The translations under genes and the position numbers were made by a program. Below, piece by piece: positions 37,955 through 43,813 of a stretch of DNA of 44,450 nucleotides; the stretch's first letter is position 1; every line of letters starts with the position of its first letter. The stretch lies in NCBI GenBank assembly GCA_003551455.1, contig PUMR01000026.1:1-44450 (forward strand), in the 5' to 3' direction. The DNA comes from Mollicutes bacterium. GTDB lineage: Bacteria; Bacillota_I; Bacilli_A; Izemoplasmatales; Izemoplasmataceae. The notes beneath the pieces are model-generated. The model worked only from the letters and a program-made list of their open reading frames with translations. It searched no databases and was not told the DNA's origin.

Positions 37955-40249
37955 TCACGTGAACGGATCTTCGGGGAGATGGAAGAGGAACCCCTGTTGG
38001 AGATTGCAGGACAACCTCTGGAGGATGGCTTTCTGGTTCGCCGTCTCCACGCCTTCGGCGATGATTTCCTTGTGGGAGAGATGGGCGATCCTGCGGATCA
38101 TCCTGATAATCTCCTGGTTGCTCGGACTGCTGATCTTCTCGGTGAAGACGGAATCGATCTTGATGATGTCGAACGCGACATTCTCGAGGATGGAGAGCGA
38201 AGAGTATTCTTTCCCGAAATCGTCGAGGGCGATGAGGAAGCCTTCGCGTTTGAACCGGCGGATCCTCTCCAGACATAGTTCGAGATTGTGCACGAAGGTC
38301 TTTTCGGAAATCTCGAGGCAGACATCGCCGCTTTTGACGTCGTGTTCTGCCAAAGCGTCTGCAAGCTGTTCGGGCGTCTTCGGATTGAGCACCGCTTCGG
38401 GGCTCAGATTCAAAGACAGTTTGGCATCTTCATACCCTTTCATGGTGCGGAGTCTCTTATAGCGCGAGAACGACCTGTCGATGAGGTAACGCTCCAAGGG
38501 GTCCAAGAGATTGGCATCGCGGGCGATGTCGAGGAAGTCCTCGGGGAGGACGGCACCGAGGTCTTCGTCATGCCAACGGGCGAGCTGCTCGACAAAGGGG
38601 ACGTTCCCGGTGGAGACATCGCAGACTTTCTGGAAATGCACATCGATCTTCCCTTCGTCGATGGCCCTCCCGAGTCTTGCCGCGACGAGGATGTTCTGTT
38701 CGAGTTCTTCGCTCATCTGTCTCTTGTAGCGGACGATGCGGTTTCCCATGGTTTTCGCGCTCTCCTGCATGGCGAGACTGGCGAGCGGGATGAGCTCGGC
38801 GGGATTGTCGGTGTCCTCGGGGAAACGGGCGAAGCCGATGCTCGTCTTGATTTCGAGGTTGATGCCTTTGGCCTCGTGTGTCGAGAAGGCGATGTCGGCG
38901 AAACGTTCGACGAAAGCGGAAAGATTCTTCTCATCGGCTTCTTCATTCACCGCGAAGACGACGAACTCGTCGCCCGAGTATCGGCAGACGAAGCAGTCGT
39001 CGCTGGCGATATCCACAAGGCTCTGGGCGAGACTCACGAGAATCTCGTCCCCGGTCTTGTGTCCGTAATAGTCGTTTATGCGGGAAAAGCCCCGGACATC
39101 GACGAAGAAGGCGAAGGCGCGCTCGATGCCGTTCAAGGCGGCGATCTTGCCGTAGAGTCCCTGCTGGTTCAAGAGGTTGGTCAACGGGTCGTGGTCGCGG
39201 TCATGCGCCATGCGGCGGTTGTTCTCGATGAAATGGGTGATCTCGTGACCGATGGCGAGAACGTGGTCGATGGCCCCGGTGTCGTCGGGAATGGCCTCAT
39301 AGCTCCAACGGATCCATTTGCGCTTCCCTTCGACGTTGATGACGGAAGTCCCCGAGGCGCTTTTCTCCTCGAGCACCTTGTCGAACCAGTAACGGTCCTT
39401 GCGACCGACAGATTCGTTGATCGCGAAAGCGTCTTGGCCGACGACGTCATCACGCTTCTTCTCATAGACCCTCAACGCTTCGTCGGAGGCATAGATGACG
39501 GTGCCGTCGGTCGCGAGTTTGACGATCAGGTCGCGGCTCTTCTCGAGGACTTTCCGGCTTTCCTCCTCGAGGAGGCGGAAGGCCAGCTCCTTCTTTTCGA
39601 GCTGTTCGCTGATGAACTCGATCCGGGTGGCGTCATAGGCGGTGTAGCCATAACCCTGGGGAAGCTCGAAGACGCCTTGATGGAACATCGTCGTGTAATG
39701 GTCGTGTTTCGGCAGGCGCAAGCGGAAATGCACGGTGCGCGAAGAATGCATCCCACTCCGCCTGGTGGGAAGACACGCCTTGTGGATGTCGTCTTTGTGG
39801 ATGAGTTCCTTGAATTCGGCAATCTTCAACAGCAGGAAATGGTTGTCGAGGTCGTAGCGTTCCACCAGCGTGTCGCTGAAGTAGAGGACGACCTGGTCTT
39901 CGTGGTCCAAAAAGACCACCTGTATGGAGTTGTCCTTGATATGGTCGTCGATACGCAGTCGGGAACGTTCTCTTTTTCCGGAATTCGTTCCGGTGTGGCC
40001 GGAATCGGTGCTGAAAAGGGAGAATGCGAAGGGGGTTCTCGAAGCCGCGAGGGCGAAGGGGCCGTGCTGTTCTGTCAAGTGGAAGGCGACAAGAAAGAAA
40101 CACGCCGAAACGAGCGCCAACATCGGGATGTCCGGCGCAAGGGGCCTCGCTGTTAGTGCGGTTCTCATGATGTGGATCATAGAAGCGGTGAGTAGAAACG
40201 CGGTTACGGGGCGGATCCATGTTCGGTCATCGTTGTGCTTTCTGCTCAT
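37955..40249 (-). CDS. Membrane PAS-GGDEF-EAL cyclic-di-GMP enzyme
   Basis: The 764-residue protein has two N-terminal membrane helices (about residues 12-33 and 41-58), a PAS-like region (about 95-215), a second PAS domain (about 236-340), a GGDEF domain whose motif is RYSGDEF (residues 423-429), and a C-terminal EAL domain. The EAL domain keeps the catalytic set: E554 in VEQLARW (ExL form), NLSPEAV, LEISEKTF, DDFGKEYSSL (676), KIDSVF, AEGVET (731) and QGFLF. It could make and/or break cyclic di-GMP; the intact EAL residues favour phosphodiesterase activity. Its promoter region carries the same 26-bp element as the repeat-peptide gene next door. Confidence 0.93.
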   Translation of the reverse strand: MSRKHNDDRTWIRPVTAFLLTASMIHIMRTALTARPLAPDIPMLALVSACFFLVAFHLTEQHGPFALAASRTPFAFSLFSTDSGHTGTNSGKRERSRLRIDDHIKDNSIQVVFLDHEDQVVLYFSDTLVERYDLDNHFLLLKIAEFKELIHKDDIHKACLPTRRSGMHSSRTVHFRLRLPKHDHYTTMFHQGVFELPQGYGYTAYDATRIEFISEQLEKKELAFRLLEEESRKVLEKSRDLIVKLATDGTVIYASDEALRVYEKKRDDVVGQDAFAINESVGRKDRYWFDKVLEEKSASGTSVINVEGKRKWIRWSYEAIPDDTGAIDHVLAIGHEITHFIENNRRMAHDRDHDPLTNLLNQQGLYGKIAALNGIERAFAFFVDVRGFSRINDYYGHKTGDEILVSLAQSLVDIASDDCFVCRYSGDEFVVFAVNEEADEKNLSAFVERFADIAFSTHEAKGINLEIKTSIGFARFPEDTDNPAELIPLASLAMQESAKTMGNRIVRYKRQMSEELEQNILVAARLGRAIDEGKIDVHFQKVCDVSTGNVPFVEQLARWHDEDLGAVLPEDFLDIARDANLLDPLERYLIDRSFSRYKRLRTMKGYEDAKLSLNLSPEAVLNPKTPEQLADALAEHDVKSGDVCLEISEKTFVHNLELCLERIRRFKREGFLIALDDFGKEYSSLSILENVAFDIIKIDSVFTEKISSPSNQEIIRMIRRIAHLSHKEIIAEGVETANQKAILQRLSCNLQQGFLFHLPEDPFT

Positions 40250-40349
40250 CTTGCCCCACCTGCCTTGATGTGTGCTCCACGGCTGTATTAGGGATTCCGA
40301 AGTAGTTCAGTGCATGAGGAAAGAGCATGTTCCTAGTGACTTATTATTC

Positions 40350-40399
40350 ATTGTAGACTAGTAGTCTAGAATCGAACAGCGCGGATATGTCGTAGTTTT
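40350..40399 (-). promoter_or_regulatory. GGDEF-EAL promoter with copy 2 of the 26-bp element
   Basis: On the minus strand the 26-bp element (40399-40374, starting AAAACTACGACATATCC) is followed after exactly 18 nt by the -10 hexamer TACAAT (40355-40350). The element is identical to 41387-41412 upstream of the repeat-peptide gene, where the same 18-nt spacing to a -10 occurs. With one mismatch the identity extends to 30 bp. It lies immediately after the terminator of the regulator gene and covers the -35 position, as an activator site would. Confidence 0.75.
40354..40368. repeat. 15-bp perfect palindrome at the GGDEF-EAL promoter
   Basis: TAGACTA-G-TAGTCTA is a perfect inverted repeat lying in the spacer and touching the -10 hexamer of the GGDEF-EAL promoter. 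No equivalent exists in the peptide promoter, so it could be an operator for an additional regulator. Confidence 0.5.
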
Positions 40400-40411
40400 G
40401 AAAAAAAGCAT

Positions 40412-40439
40412 AAAAAAAGACCCGGAAGATTTCCGGATC
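40412..40439 (-). terminator. Terminator of the RRNPP-like regulator gene
   Basis: The stem GATCCGGAA / TTCCGGGTC with a 3-nt loop is followed on the minus strand by seven T, 4 nt after the regulator stop codon. Confidence 0.88.
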
Positions 40440-40443
40440 CTTG

Positions 40444-41364
40444 TCAGACGACCTGTTTTTTGAGATAGTTCAGGACGAAATTGTGGAAGTTGATGTTGAA
40501 GTCTTTCTCGATGTAGCCGGTGAAGAGTTCGATTTTCTTTTTGTTGCCCTCCATGTGGAGGACGTTGTAGCAGCGGAAAAGGGAGTCCTCATAGTTCACA
40601 TAGTCTTCCAGCCGGAAATACGCCAGGGCTTTGTAGTAGTAAAAATACTCCCAGAGGTAATACTGTTTATAGGCTTTTCCCCGTTCGATTCCCAAATCGC
40701 AAAACCGGATGACTTGCGGGAAATTCTTCTGCATGCCGAAGCTTTTGCTTAAGCGCATTAGAATCATGATGTAGATCATGTCATTTTCGCTACTGATAAT
40801 ATTCGTCTGCCTGTCAAACAACTCACTCAAGCGTTCCAGAATGGGTTGTTGCTGTGGGACATCTAAGAATGACAACAGAGAGCTGAGTACCAAAACTTCA
40901 ATGTCGGTGAAGTATTCTTGCTTCAATACATTGGGATAATCGATCAATTCTGCATTTTTATGTGCAGCATCGGTTCTGGAAAGACGGCCTTGATTGTAGT
41001 CAAATAAAACCAAGGCATGTTGGAAGAAGACCGCCATTTCTTCTTCAATTATGATGTCGTTTTTTAGTTCATCCTCTTGTTCTTTCGCAGAAGTGTAATC
41101 TTGATTGACCACGGCATTATAAAACTCGTTTATCATTCTCAGCTGTTCGCTCTTCTTTTTCTCGAATTCTTTCAAAAGCTTTCTGGATGGAATTCCTAAC
41201 TTTTCAGCAAATTGCTGCAACTTTTCATAAGGTATCTCGCATTCACCGCTACGATAGCGTTGATATTGACGTAAAGAAACAACGCCATCGACGAAGTCCT
41301 CTTGCGTCAACTTTCTGCCATATCTGATTTTTTCCAAGTAGTTGCTCAGTTCCATGGAGTTCAT
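40444..41364 (-). CDS. RRNPP-type (PlcR/Rgg-like) peptide-responsive regulator
   Basis: The protein is 306 residues from the ATG at 41364, chosen because AGGTG lies 6 nt upstream; GTG 41373 and ATG 41355 are alternatives. Residues about 4-60 form an Xre-type helix-turn-helix (YGRKLTQEDFVDGVVSLRQYQRY, SGECEIPYEKLQQFAEKLGI). The remaining 240 residues are helical with TPR-like pairs, including aromatic-rich YYLWEYFYYYKALAYFRLED. This is the architecture of the quorum-sensing regulators PlcR, PrgX, NprR and Rgg, which bind short imported peptides. It is divergent from a secreted repeat-peptide gene and is more AT-rich than its neighbours. Its own promoter probably overlaps the shared 26-bp element. 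The family call is by architecture, not by database search. Confidence 0.8.
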   Translation of the reverse strand: MNSMELSNYLEKIRYGRKLTQEDFVDGVVSLRQYQRYRSGECEIPYEKLQQFAEKLGIPSRKLLKEFEKKKSEQLRMINEFYNAVVNQDYTSAKEQEDELKNDIIIEEEMAVFFQHALVLFDYNQGRLSRTDAAHKNAELIDYPNVLKQEYFTDIEVLVLSSLLSFLDVPQQQPILERLSELFDRQTNIISSENDMIYIMILMRLSKSFGMQKNFPQVIRFCDLGIERGKAYKQYYLWEYFYYYKALAYFRLEDYVNYEDSLFRCYNVLHMEGNKKKIELFTGYIEKDFNINFHNFVLNYLKKQVV

Positions 41365-41386
41365 GGAATTCACCTGCTCATTCTTG

Positions 41387-41436
41387 AAAACTACGACATA
41401 TCCGCGCTGTTCAATTGGGTGTTCCTTGGTTATGAT
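41387..41436 (+). promoter_or_regulatory. Repeat-peptide promoter with copy 1 of the 26-bp element
   Basis: The 26-bp element occupies 41387-41412 (AAAACTACGACATATCC...), and the -10 hexamer TATGAT (41431-41436) starts after 18 nt. The ATG is 24 nt further down, with GAAGGAGGAG as ribosome binding site. The -35 position falls at the end of the element and has no good consensus, which suggests activator dependence. Confidence 0.75.
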
Positions 41437-41460
41437 GTAGGCAGAAGGAGGAGATTTATA

Positions 41461-41829
41461 ATGAAAAAACTGTTTGTTATCGCGATTCTATTCTTGGCTG
41501 TTGGTGTTGTTTCTTCGACTGAAAATAACGAGGAAAGATTCTTGGACTTTGATGATGATCATTTCCCGGAGTATGTTTCTTTGAGGGCGACTCCACAACC
41601 GAACCAACGAGCTATTGAAAGGTCACCCAGATTCAATCCTGAAATCAAACCAGTGGATTTTGATGACGATCATTTCCCTGAGTACGTTTCGTTGAATATT
41701 TCCGCAAGATTCCTTGATTTTGACGACGACCATTTCCCTGAGTATGTATCATTGGATGCCATTTCAGACAATACACCTATATTCCTTGATTTTGATGATG
41801 ACCACTTCCCCGAATACGTTTCAAAATAA
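41461..41829 (+). CDS. Secreted precursor with four copies of DFDDDHFPEYVS
   Basis: The 122-residue protein begins with a signal peptide, MKKLFVIAILFLAVGVVSS, with no lipobox cysteine, so Sec export is expected. The rest carries four copies of DFDDDHFPEYVS at residues 29-40, 66-77, 86-97 and 110-121, the last copy ending one residue before the stop. Linkers of 8-25 residues differ between copies. GAAGGAGGAG sets the start at 41461; the longer open frame upstream has no support. Layout and divergence from an RRNPP-like regulator suggest a multi-copy peptide pheromone precursor, comparable in logic to PapR of Bacillus cereus. A multi-core modified peptide or a repeat surface protein are less likely alternatives, as no modification enzyme is nearby. 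Confidence 0.85.
   Translation: MKKLFVIAILFLAVGVVSSTENNEERFLDFDDDHFPEYVSLRATPQPNQRAIERSPRFNPEIKPVDFDDDHFPEYVSLNISARFLDFDDDHFPEYVSLDAISDNTPIFLDFDDDHFPEYVSK
41545..41823 (+). repeat. Four 36-bp coding repeats (dodecapeptide cores)
   Basis: Copies lie at 41545-41580, 41656-41691, 41716-41751 and 41788-41823. They encode an identical dodecapeptide, yet 10 of the 12 codons differ synonymously among copies (only the two Phe codons are invariant). The repeats are therefore old and the peptide sequence is under selection. Confidence 0.92.
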
Positions 41830-41907
41830 TACTCTGTATTAAACGCTCTATATTCAAGCACAGTGAAATCAACCTACAACCAATCCATTTTGAAAGGAAG
41901 ATTCAAT

Positions 41908-42183
41908 ATGAGAAAACAAGAATTCATGGTGGAACTCGATGGTGTGATCGGAACCATCCACACCTATACGCGCAATCCCTTCATGATGGGCTACACCCGT
42001 GAATTGAAGCGTGCGGTCAAGCATGACGACCTCGAGAAGGTCAAGATCATCCTCGACAAGGTCATCACCTGGTACAACGAGGAGATCGACAAGATCAAGA
42101 ATGACGAGTTCGTCTTCAACAAGTCCATGCACGAGAAAGCCTATCATATTCTTCGGCAATACCGCGAAGCCTTGCAACACTGA
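41908..42183 (+). CDS. Small helical protein of unknown function (91 aa) downstream of the peptide gene
   Basis: The ATG at 41908 has GAAAGGAAG 7 nt upstream; the GTG at 41863 in the same frame has none. The 91-residue product is charged and predicted mainly helical (RELKRAVKHDDLEKVKIILDK, KAYHILRQYREAL), without signal peptide or membrane segment. No terminator is visible between the precursor gene and this one (78-nt gap), so they are probably co-transcribed, and the first good terminator is at 42406. Its codon use is GC-rich, unlike the precursor gene. I do not recognise a family. A role in precursor processing, peptide response or an effector function is conceivable, but nothing in the sequence shows it. 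Confidence 0.75.
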   Translation: MRKQEFMVELDGVIGTIHTYTRNPFMMGYTRELKRAVKHDDLEKVKIILDKVITWYNEEIDKIKNDEFVFNKSMHEKAYHILRQYREALQH

Positions 42184-42223: not shown

Positions 42224-42327
42224 TACCCCACTAATACTATCATAACATTGTCAACCTAACATGTCATGCTTTTCTTCGGCTACTCCCCGGTTGCGGGACC
42301 GGGATATCATCCTTCTCACATCACTCT

Positions 42328-42399
42328 CCCCATCTCCATCACTTTCCCCTATCCCCATCACTTTCCCCCATCACCATCACCTTATCACATGCATCCCCC
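42328..42399 (-). repeat. C-rich/G-rich tract with 14-nt direct repeats
   Basis: The plus strand carries five runs of four or five C (42328, 42346, 42353, 42365 and 42395), and a 14-nt direct repeat ends in TTTCCCC (42336-42349 and 42355-42368). The minus strand could form a G-quadruplex. The stretch 42184-42452 otherwise holds no credible gene; a 60-codon frame at 42266 has no ribosome binding site. Confidence 0.45.
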
Positions 42400-42405
42400 A
42401 TCGAC

Positions 42406-42446
42406 AAACAGGGACCCTTTCCCGCAGGGTCCCTGTTTGATTTTTT
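42406..42446 (+). terminator. Terminator downstream of the peptide locus
   Basis: A 13-bp stem (left arm 42406-42418, right arm 42426-42438, loop TTCCCGC) is followed by GA and six T on the plus strand. Confidence 0.9.
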
Positions 42447-42452
42447 AGGGGG

Positions 42453-43580
42453 TCATTGTGCAGTGAACACACCCATGATATGCATGATGCGAACATAGAC
42501 CTCGATCCCCTTCAAGAGGACCTCGCCGGAATAATCGAAAAGGTCACTGTGCAGAGGATGGGTGAAGCCGCGACGGACATTCTTCGTGCCGAGGAGGAAG
42601 AAGAGTCCGGGGGTCGCGTTCTGGTAGTGGGAGAAATCCTCGGCCATGAGCATGGGTTCCATCTCGGAGTGTTCTTCCTCGGCAAGGACGGTCTTCATGA
42701 TGGCAAAGAGGTCGGAATCGTTCCTCACGGGCGGATGGAGGATCCGGAAGGTTTCGGAGACGCTCACGTCATGCAAAGCCTCTATGCCCCGGCAGGCTTT
42801 TTCGATGGCTTCGAGCAGCCGGTTGTGTACCGAGGGTGTGAAAGTGCGGAGGGTTCCGGATATGTGCGCCCGGGCGGGAACGATGTTCCTGCCGTTTCCC
42901 GCCTCCAAGCGGCTGATATGCAAGACGGCCGCTTCCCGGGGGTCGGTCGCGGTCTTGACGATCGTGTTCAAGCGTTCGGCGAGAGAAAGCGCCCCCAACA
43001 AAGCGTCGGACCCTTCCTGCGGTGCCGCGCCGTGGGCGGGAGCGCCATCGATTACGATATCGAACTCGCCGTCCTGTGCGGTCATCACCCCGTCTGTGAG
43101 GCCGATCTTCCCCTCTTCGAGACCGGGATAGAGATGGAGGCCGAAGATGGCGCGGATATCCTCTTGGGCGAAAAGCCCCGTATCGACGATCGCCTTCGCT
43201 CCCCCGTTCGTCTCTTCGGCGGGCTGGAAGAGGAAAACGACGCTCTTTTCCGTGGGCTCTTCCGCCAGATATTCGGCCAGGCCGAGGAGGATGGCCATGT
43301 GACCGTCATGGCCGCACATGTGGGCGTTGGCCTCACAAGGCGTCACCCTGGTGGCGGGGAGAGCGTCCATGTCCGCACGGAAAGCGACGGCCTCTTTTCT
43401 CCGGCCCCGTTTGACGGCGAAGAGACCGCTCTTGGCGATGGTCTTGGGCGCATAGCCCAGCTTCTCGAGTTCTTCCTTGACATAACGGTGTGTCCGCGGA
43501 AGGTCGAAGCCGAGTTCGGCCCGGTCTTGCAGATTCTCCCGGTGATGACGCACGGTTTCGGATAATGTCTGTGGTTGCAT
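42453..43580 (-). CDS. M20-family amidohydrolase, probable N-acyl-amino acid or N-acetyl-diaminopimelate deacylase
   Basis: The protein is 375 residues from the ATG at 43580 (MQPQTLSETVRHHR), with GGGAG 10 nt upstream; the open frame further up runs through a terminator and is not used. M20 metallohydrolase motifs are AFRADMDALPA, ANAHMCGHDGHMAILLG with the cysteine-histidine metal set, VVFLFQPAEETNGGAK and, near the end, LMAEDFSHYQNATPGLFFLLG. It is under a lysine riboswitch, which points to lysine or diaminopimelate metabolism, for example removal of the acetyl group from N-acetyl-LL-diaminopimelate. A salvage hydrolase is also possible. No other lysine gene is nearby. Confidence 0.85.
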   Translation of the reverse strand: MQPQTLSETVRHHRENLQDRAELGFDLPRTHRYVKEELEKLGYAPKTIAKSGLFAVKRGRRKEAVAFRADMDALPATRVTPCEANAHMCGHDGHMAILLGLAEYLAEEPTEKSVVFLFQPAEETNGGAKAIVDTGLFAQEDIRAIFGLHLYPGLEEGKIGLTDGVMTAQDGEFDIVIDGAPAHGAAPQEGSDALLGALSLAERLNTIVKTATDPREAAVLHISRLEAGNGRNIVPARAHISGTLRTFTPSVHNRLLEAIEKACRGIEALHDVSVSETFRILHPPVRNDSDLFAIMKTVLAEEEHSEMEPMLMAEDFSHYQNATPGLFFLLGTKNVRRGFTHPLHSDLFDYSGEVLLKGIEVYVRIMHIMGVFTAQ

Positions 43581-43595
43581 GATGAGTTCGCTCCC

Positions 43596-43632
43596 AAAAA
43601 AAGAGTCCGCGAGCTCTTCAAGGCTCGCGGAC
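43596..43632 (-). terminator. Expression-platform terminator of the lysine riboswitch
   Basis: The stem GTCCGCGAGC / GCTCGCGGAC with an 8-nt loop is followed by TCTTTTTTT on the minus strand. The ribosome binding site GGGAG begins directly after the T run. It is the likely switchable terminator of the leader. Confidence 0.9.
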
Positions 43633-43667
43633 GCATAGACAAGTCGCATACAACCGGAATATGCCCC

Positions 43668-43813
43668 GCTTCATAAAAGCGCATTCCCTTCCCTTCGGGC
43701 AAGGTGGGGAACAGTCCCGCGCTTCTTCAGCGCGGTACCAGCTTACGCTTCGGCGCCGGCCCCTTTCCCCTCGCGGGTACTCTTGACCCCTGGCGCGGCC
43801 TCTTCTATAAAGC
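43668..43813 (-). ncRNA. Lysine riboswitch (L box)
   Basis: The minus-strand leader contains, in order, the conserved blocks of the lysine aptamer: AGAGGCCGCG, GTCAAGAGTACCC, GAGGGGAAAGGGG, GCGCCGAAGCG, GCTGGTACCGCG and GCGCGGGACTGT. Compared with Bacillus subtilis lysC these match AGAGGUGCG, UCAAGAGUA, GCCGAAG, GCUGG and GGCUGUC in the same order. The P1 helix can form from GCTTTAT (43813-43807) and ATGAAGC (43674-43668). Lysine binding should favour the terminator at 43596-43632 and lower expression of the M20 gene. The aptamer is relatively compact. Confidence 0.88.

Follow-up and report, generated by a model that had tools for sequence, protein, structure and literature searches.

Peptide quorum sensing and cyclic di-GMP (c-di-GMP) signalling in Gram-positive-type bacteria have, to our knowledge, mostly been treated apart. 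Among the described peptide receptors, those of the Rap type have no DNA-binding domain, and in the ComR-ComS and Rgg-SHP systems of streptococci the operator lies close to the promoter core and we know of no c-di-GMP output. PlcR of Bacillus cereus activates 45 genes, one of which encodes a PAS-GGDEF-EAL protein (PMC2464732), transcription of plcR is raised in a Bacillus thuringiensis strain without three phosphodiesterase genes (PMC5816809), and Phr propeptides carry up to eight identical pheromone copies (PMC11343458). The control of a PAS-GGDEF-EAL gene by PlcR sets a precedent for an RRNPP receptor governing such an enzyme. Here we analyse a window, that is, the whole stretch of 44,450 nucleotides (nt) of contig PUMR01000026.1 from a Mollicutes bacterium, in which genes for an Xre-type regulator, a putative peptide precursor, a small protein and a membrane PAS-GGDEF-EAL enzyme lie together, where an earlier sequence-only reading had placed them. 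We consider it probable that the precursor releases four identical 12-residue peptides, that these act on a PlcR-like receptor, and that the precursor gene and the gene of a predicted c-di-GMP-degrading enzyme are both switched on through one common promoter element. L-, G- and P-numbers denote loci, genomes and proteins, respectively.

A shared element and a linked gene set

The window contains exactly two copies of the 23-bp element ACTACGACATATCCGCGCTGTTC, at 41390..41412 (plus strand) before the precursor gene and at 40374..40396 (minus strand) before the enzyme gene, with no third occurrence even when 3 mismatches are allowed and 0 in 100 shuffles. Its core TACGACATATCCGCGCTGTT covers the -35 region of both promoters and stands exactly 19 bp before the -10 boxes TATGAT of the precursor (41431..41436, plus) and TACAAT of the enzyme (40350..40355, minus), which bears out the identical element at identical distance that had been noticed earlier. 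With this promoter element in common, the two genes are both likely switched on by the regulator. The longest exact string common to the two promoters measures 26 nt in the window and 14-29 nt in 12 relatives, the maxima in 100 simple shuffles being 10-16 nt; L002 and L009, having no upstream DNA, were left out of this comparison. A search of 11 whole genomes with the 18-bp core (at most 3 mismatches) gave 32 matches, as against 5 when the pattern was reversed; of the 32, the closest lay mainly at the cassette. The composite pattern (element, N19, TANNNT) was found at 39 sites in 21 of the 90 genomes of the order, its reversed control at none, and was present in 16 of the 22 genomes that encode a close regulator (E <= 1e-110). 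By coordinates and neighbouring genes, 30 of these sites stand before cassette genes, eight elsewhere and one (G046) at a contig edge; two of the 30 belong to G079, the genome of L018, in which the output is not a phosphodiesterase. Element-like matches in G010 and G011 were considered as a second copy of the circuit and discarded, their neighbouring genes forming no cassette.

The cassette is compact. The regulator gene (306 amino acids, aa; 40444..41364, minus, with a possible GTG start at 41373) and the precursor gene (122 aa; 41461..41829, plus) are direct, divergent neighbours 96 bp apart, the precursor copy of the element lying 25 bp from the regulator's ATG. The small protein (91 aa; 41908..42183, plus) follows the precursor, and a terminator-like hairpin (42405..42439, plus) lies 3' of this unit. 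The enzyme gene (764 aa; 37955..40249, minus) lies on the far side of the regulator. Since a second terminator-like hairpin with a T-run (40416..40442, minus) separates the regulator from the enzyme promoter, the enzyme is apparently transcribed from the element promoter and not from that of the regulator; note that a scan of the window gave 5 terminator-like sites versus 2.5 expected.

One scan of genome contigs recovered 22 regulator loci. A GGDEF/EAL gene was the next conserved gene 3' of the regulator in 17 of them (that of L008 being cut by the contig end); of the remaining five, the contigs of L007, L014 and L022 stop too early, and L018 and the Haloplasma locus L021 carry other genes. 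A partial downstream frame of 173 aa in L007, where the contig ends, matches no cassette enzyme and was not counted as one. Flanking genes resemble those of the window in L001, partly in L002, L003 and L020, and hardly elsewhere, so that the linkage of the cassette genes is not a mere lack of rearrangement. The association of precursor, regulator, small protein and enzyme is thus kept in relatives with differing surroundings, and the overall model of a peptide circuit put forward by the sequence-only reading is supported both by this synteny and by the receptor fold described below. Duplicates (L108-L110) and short versions (L027-L056) were excluded from the counts, L108 and L109 also from the enzyme alignment, and L018 and L099 were treated as one locus. 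In the regulator tree, L098 and L103, with weak GGDEF-type matches that are not directly downstream, were not labelled as having an enzyme, and L007, L014 and L106 were labelled as having other neighbours solely because their contigs end.

That model had placed the element at two genes. Its conservation at both promoters is upheld, and in some genomes the element also precedes third genes. These encode SLATT_4 proteins (L122, L128), a peptidase-C39 ATP-binding cassette (ABC) exporter (L129), a secreted CBM96/DNRLRE protein (L123), membrane proteins (L024 and L126, 42% identical, and L023) and a secreted protein without assignment (L131). The SLATT_4 genes (L122 2483-3031 and L128 2667-3137) encode effector-type proteins with two transmembrane segments that are 74% identical and stand behind the element in two genomes. 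The exporter recurs at 84% identity behind the element in G051 (L129 152-2389), which belongs to the clade with EAL enzymes, and in G017 (L116 879-3059), which belongs to a second clade with HD-GYP proteins (see below). Signal-bearing proteins that are 37% identical (L123 259-2394, with CBM96/DNRLRE, and L113 837-1976, truncated and with no Pfam match) likewise stand behind the element in both clades.

The repeated peptide and its proposed receptor

The precursor begins with MKKLFVIAILFLAVGVVSS, in which MKK is followed by a hydrophobic stretch of 14 residues, and is predicted to be exported by Sec; in relatives the signal-like start was recognized by a rule-based match. The four identical dodecapeptides reported earlier were recovered as DFDDDHFPEYVS at 41545..41580, 41656..41691, 41716..41751 and 41788..41823 (all plus), the last being followed by K and the stop codon. 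All four DNA copies differ from one another, and only at synonymous sites. Summed over the six copy pairs, the 11-residue core shows 32 synonymous versus 0 nonsynonymous differences, and differences between copies within the same gene, pooled over 22 multi-copy precursors, amount to 0.43 per synonymous and 0.007 per nonsynonymous site.

In 17 of the 19 loci having enough DNA 5' of the regulator, a protein with both a signal-like start and an F...PE motif is encoded divergently from it. Fourteen of these precursors are multi-copy (L010 and L012 run off the contig end) and three are single-copy (L007, L014, L018); of the other two loci, L017 is cut within the motif by the contig end and L021 is without it. 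The same pattern recurs in wider relatives, and more distant paralogues are accompanied by short signal-like open reading frames (ORFs) without the motif, or by none that we found. Precursors in the relatives carry from 3 to at least 11 copies, the highest number being that of L059, which itself runs off its contig, or a single C-terminal copy. The single-copy precursors of orthologous regulators are 41-59 aa long and end in the peptide (e.g., ...VDFEDSGDPEFVTS), the common RRNPP layout. At L018 (also L099), three single-copy precursor genes stand in tandem beside one regulator. The sole precursor homologue returned by sequence search was P0116, with three HFPEYVV copies and an E value of 0.02; the length of its contig (116036) equals that of the contig carrying regulator P0012 and small protein P0134. 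The peptide varies between lineages with its frame kept (DDDHFPEYV, DDHHIPEHV, EDSGEPEYI, DNEDDLPEYV, DDDDLPELI), as would be expected of dialects.

The regulator falls inside the 250-500 aa range of RRNPP receptors. When its modelled structure was used in a fold search, PlcR:PapR was the best match, followed by PrgX, ComR and Rgg; the TPR-like fold on which the circuit model depends is supported, and the modelled structure gives the regulator a peptide-binding domain of the tetratricopeptide repeat (TPR) type. Over 19 relatives the helix-turn-helix (HTH) part shows a mean identity of 76% to that of the window, the remainder 52%. Counting the regulator itself, 115 proteins matched it at E <= 1e-3, and the named ones come from metagenome-assembled genomes (MAGs) of Candidatus Izemoplasmatales, Bacilli or Tenericutes and from Liberiplasma polymorphum, a species with a validly published name that is presumably in culture. 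The latter has the regulator (P0020) and, on a contig of equal length (41959), the small protein (P0124). The regulator was encoded by no phage record and no viral contig that we found. Pfam and NCBIfam matches to the precursor, small protein and regulator (SSL_N, MvdD, TCTP, Wmk, RstR and others) were rejected as short, partial or below curated cut-offs; SSL_N, which is above its cut-off, spans just 20 residues of a repeat. At L067, L068, L070, L071, L074, L075 and L078, distant regulator paralogues stand in tandem pairs, with a relative of the small protein between them, mostly together with a short signal-like ORF without a PE[YF] motif.

In 11 of the 22 loci the precursor gene is followed by that of the small protein, and a weaker relative lies beside many distant regulators. 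Because of this position and its frequent company with the regulator family, it probably tunes the signal or the receptor. It is modelled as a four-helix bundle with a predicted local distance difference test score (pLDDT) of 92.7, for which the fold search gave no match at E <= 0.001, the best being designed helix bundles. Between this gene and the hairpin that follows it, a 19-bp tandem repeat (CATCACTTTCCCCATCAC, 3.3 copies) occupies 42319-42380. Beyond the cassette, a lysine riboswitch (RF00168, 60 bits; 43669-43812, minus) lies upstream of gene 42453-43649, which by eye has the look of an M20-type amidohydrolase.

Probable output of the proposed circuit and competing explanations

The enzyme carries a PAS domain at about residues 235-339, GGDEF at 352-504 and EAL at 525-757, and its matches to Pfam PAS_4, GGDEF (E 8.6e-28) and EAL are all above cut-off. 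The EAL signature (E.L.R[WF], DDFG, EG[VI]E), some residues of which we take to be catalytic, is kept in the window and in all 19 aligned enzymes (the cut-off enzyme of L008 being excluded), and the window enzyme also has the EAL residues NLS, EISE, KID and QG. The [GS]GDEF motif, SGDEF in the window, is present in only 4 of the 19 and degenerate or absent in 15, two of which (L011, L013) are without a GGDEF domain. In a second clade of regulators (L058, L059, L060, L104, L105, L106, L107), a sister element, TATGACATAT[CA]CGC.., is followed by an HD-GYP gene (Pfam HD_5) in 7 of 7 loci. The motifs HD[IV]GK and HHER.DG.GYP are found in an alignment of six; in the seventh locus, L106, the contig stops just after the element, and its end shares a 119-bp overlap with the end of another contig of that genome (L119), which carries an HD_5 gene behind the element. 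The HD-GYP frame of L104 is shifted near its end, and Pfam recognized no GGDEF domain in any of the HD-GYP proteins of this clade.

Given the EAL signature in 19 of 19 enzymes and the HD-GYP proteins of the sister clade, the output of the circuit is most likely c-di-GMP breakdown and not synthesis. The proposed control of c-di-GMP is therefore retained as to the linked enzyme and made more specific as to its direction, hydrolysis by EAL or, in the sister clade, by HD-GYP. With 2-8 EAL and 4-9 HD_5 matches per genome in 11 genomes, chance would not be expected to place a phosphodiesterase after the operator in both clades. The two recruitments were either independent or go back to a common ancestor already controlling a phosphodiesterase. 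Taken together, these patterns lead us to favour, with some reserve, the view of a peptide quorum-sensing family selected for c-di-GMP breakdown: two unrelated phosphodiesterases would have been recruited behind one operator, the peptide would have diversified into lineage dialects and multiplied up to eleven-fold in one precursor, and the switch would have acquired additional genes in single lineages, for a peptide exporter, a secreted CBM96/DNRLRE protein and a SLATT membrane protein.

In the mechanism that we propose, the precursor would be exported by a Sec-type route and cleaved, and the peptide, the core of which would resemble DFDDDHFPEYV, would accumulate outside and probably return through an oligopeptide ABC transporter. 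It would then bind the C-terminal TPR-like domain of the regulator, as the fold suggests, and the complex would act at TACGACATATCCGCGCTGTT over the -35 region, 19 bp before both -10 boxes. More precursor (feedback) and more of the membrane PAS-GGDEF-EAL enzyme would follow, the latter most likely hydrolysing c-di-GMP, so that high density may lower c-di-GMP and favour dispersal or motility over adhesion. Uptake machinery is plausible: ATPases of the OppD/F type (oligo_HPY) were detected in 11 of 11 relatives searched, and OppD/F-type genes lie near the precursor in L006.

Several observations weigh against this scheme. The regulator, which the sequence-only reading called Xre-HTH/TPR-like, has the RRNPP fold by structure comparison but no Pfam TPR match, its only Pfam match, to HTH_19, being below threshold. 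No protease for precursor cleavage was identified, and an Opp-type binding protein (SBP_bac_5) was found in 7 of 11 genomes, although assemblies may be incomplete. The promoters of L008, L010 and L017 share no exact string above the shuffle maxima, with diverged element copies present, and six of the 22 genomes with a close regulator (G010, G011, G012, G014, G028, G071) gave no strict composite match; in some of these the element is diverged. The SGDEF motif of the window enzyme may be active, so the net effect on c-di-GMP in this species could be the opposite. Moreover, the wider family is not confined to c-di-GMP as its output, since regulators belonging to neither phosphodiesterase clade have different ones: the nearest tree relatives of the HD-GYP clade adjoin ABC/FtsX transporters (L064, L065, L101), a MACPF protein (L101) and proteins without assignment. 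At L101 (2788-4260), the MACPF-domain gene and the ABC/FtsX transporter lie 3' of a related regulator that has a site resembling the element.

The same genes could also be wired in reverse, the peptide-free regulator repressing both promoters and imported peptide relieving them, as with Rgg3 or PrgX. The element overlaps the -35 region and lies close to the regulator's own start, a position also fit for repression, the -10 box is a perfect TATAAT in many enzyme promoters, and the fold matches include structures of Rgg and PrgX. Yet the promoters are without a good -35 and the -10 boxes of the precursors are often imperfect, as expected of activated promoters, and it is an activator, PlcR, that the fold resembles most; since the -35 is poor, activation is the likelier sign of regulation, and derepression appears unlikely. 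Somewhat further from expectation is an enzyme that works chiefly as a diguanylate cyclase in this species, by which a quorum would raise c-di-GMP. The SGDEF motif and complete GGDEF domain of the window enzyme speak for it, but the EAL signature of all 19 aligned enzymes, the GGDEF motif lost or degenerate in most relatives and the HD-GYP proteins without this domain all argue for hydrolysis, and we regard a cyclase as improbable.

Neither of two more radical explanations persuades us. The repeat protein might be a secreted acidic protein, for example metal-binding or part of a surface matrix, sharing its regulator with the enzyme by chance. The repeats are indeed acidic, in many relatives they stand back to back with no evident dibasic cleavage sites, and purifying selection on repeats fits any function. 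A repeat scaffold makes little sense, however, where orthologous regulators adjoin short single-copy precursors, three of them in tandem at one locus, which is the ordinary RRNPP arrangement; the regulator moreover has the fold of a peptide receptor, and we judge this explanation very improbable. Mere adjacency of the enzyme is hardly credible. Each of the 90 genomes examined in the order has GGDEF domains (1 to 25 matches per genome), so that a neighbouring enzyme could mean little, and the circuit would be one of many inputs to the c-di-GMP pool; but chance is already contradicted by the common element, which precedes both genes at a constant spacing and persists in lineages whose flanking genes differ, and by the recurrence of such an element before a second family of phosphodiesterases.

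Comparison with known systems

The sequence-only reading knew of no described system that pairs a four-copy precursor with a c-di-GMP gene in this way. The parts have forerunners, a PAS-GGDEF-EAL gene under PlcR (PMC2464732) and multi-copy propeptides (PMC11343458). Titles and abstract openings of the open-access literature on RRNPP, c-di-GMP and Izemoplasmatales contained no such cassette, and no on-topic open-access paper joined Izemoplasma with quorum sensing or RRNPP with Mollicutes. Within that literature, we found neither the enzyme as fixed partner behind a common operator, nor its replacement by HD-GYP, nor RRNPP signalling in this group.

If the proposed circuit is real, one cis-linked cassette with one operator directly connects peptide communication between cells with a major second messenger, and a little-known, c-di-GMP-rich group of wall-less bacteria has a switch for group behaviour. 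The exchange of EAL for HD-GYP indicates the purpose of the output without knowledge of the organism. Dialects on a nearly fixed operator form a natural set for studying how the specificities of peptide and receptor co-evolve, and the series of copy numbers from 1 to at least 11 is ready material for asking why propeptides multiply their signal.

The RRNPP_detector catalogue resembles our locus in its plan, a receptor of 250-500 aa adjoining a secreted propeptide. The underlying survey drew on complete Firmicutes genomes, TPR hidden Markov model (HMM) matches and propeptides of 10-100 aa (PMC10075063). It would probably miss the present system, with its regulator without a Pfam TPR match, its relatives that are mostly MAGs and its precursor of 122 aa, carried above 100 aa by its repeats. 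The ComR-ComS and Rgg-SHP systems share with it HTH-TPR receptors, which appear among the fold matches, but control other genes and have short single-copy precursors. Rap-Phr systems (Phr3T, Phr105) have several pheromone copies per propeptide, as here (PMC11343458); the copies described in this study, however, reach at least 11 (L059), and the receptor is of the Xre type and linked to the gene of a predicted c-di-GMP phosphodiesterase. The closest likeness is to PlcR-PapR of B. cereus and B. thuringiensis, the best fold match, in which an HTH and TPR-like receptor stands beside a secreted propeptide and PlcR controls papR (PMC2464732). Unlike PlcR-PapR, the cassette analysed here has a multi-copy precursor, often a small third protein, and an enzyme that is a fixed neighbour, with a distance of exactly 19 bp between box and -10.

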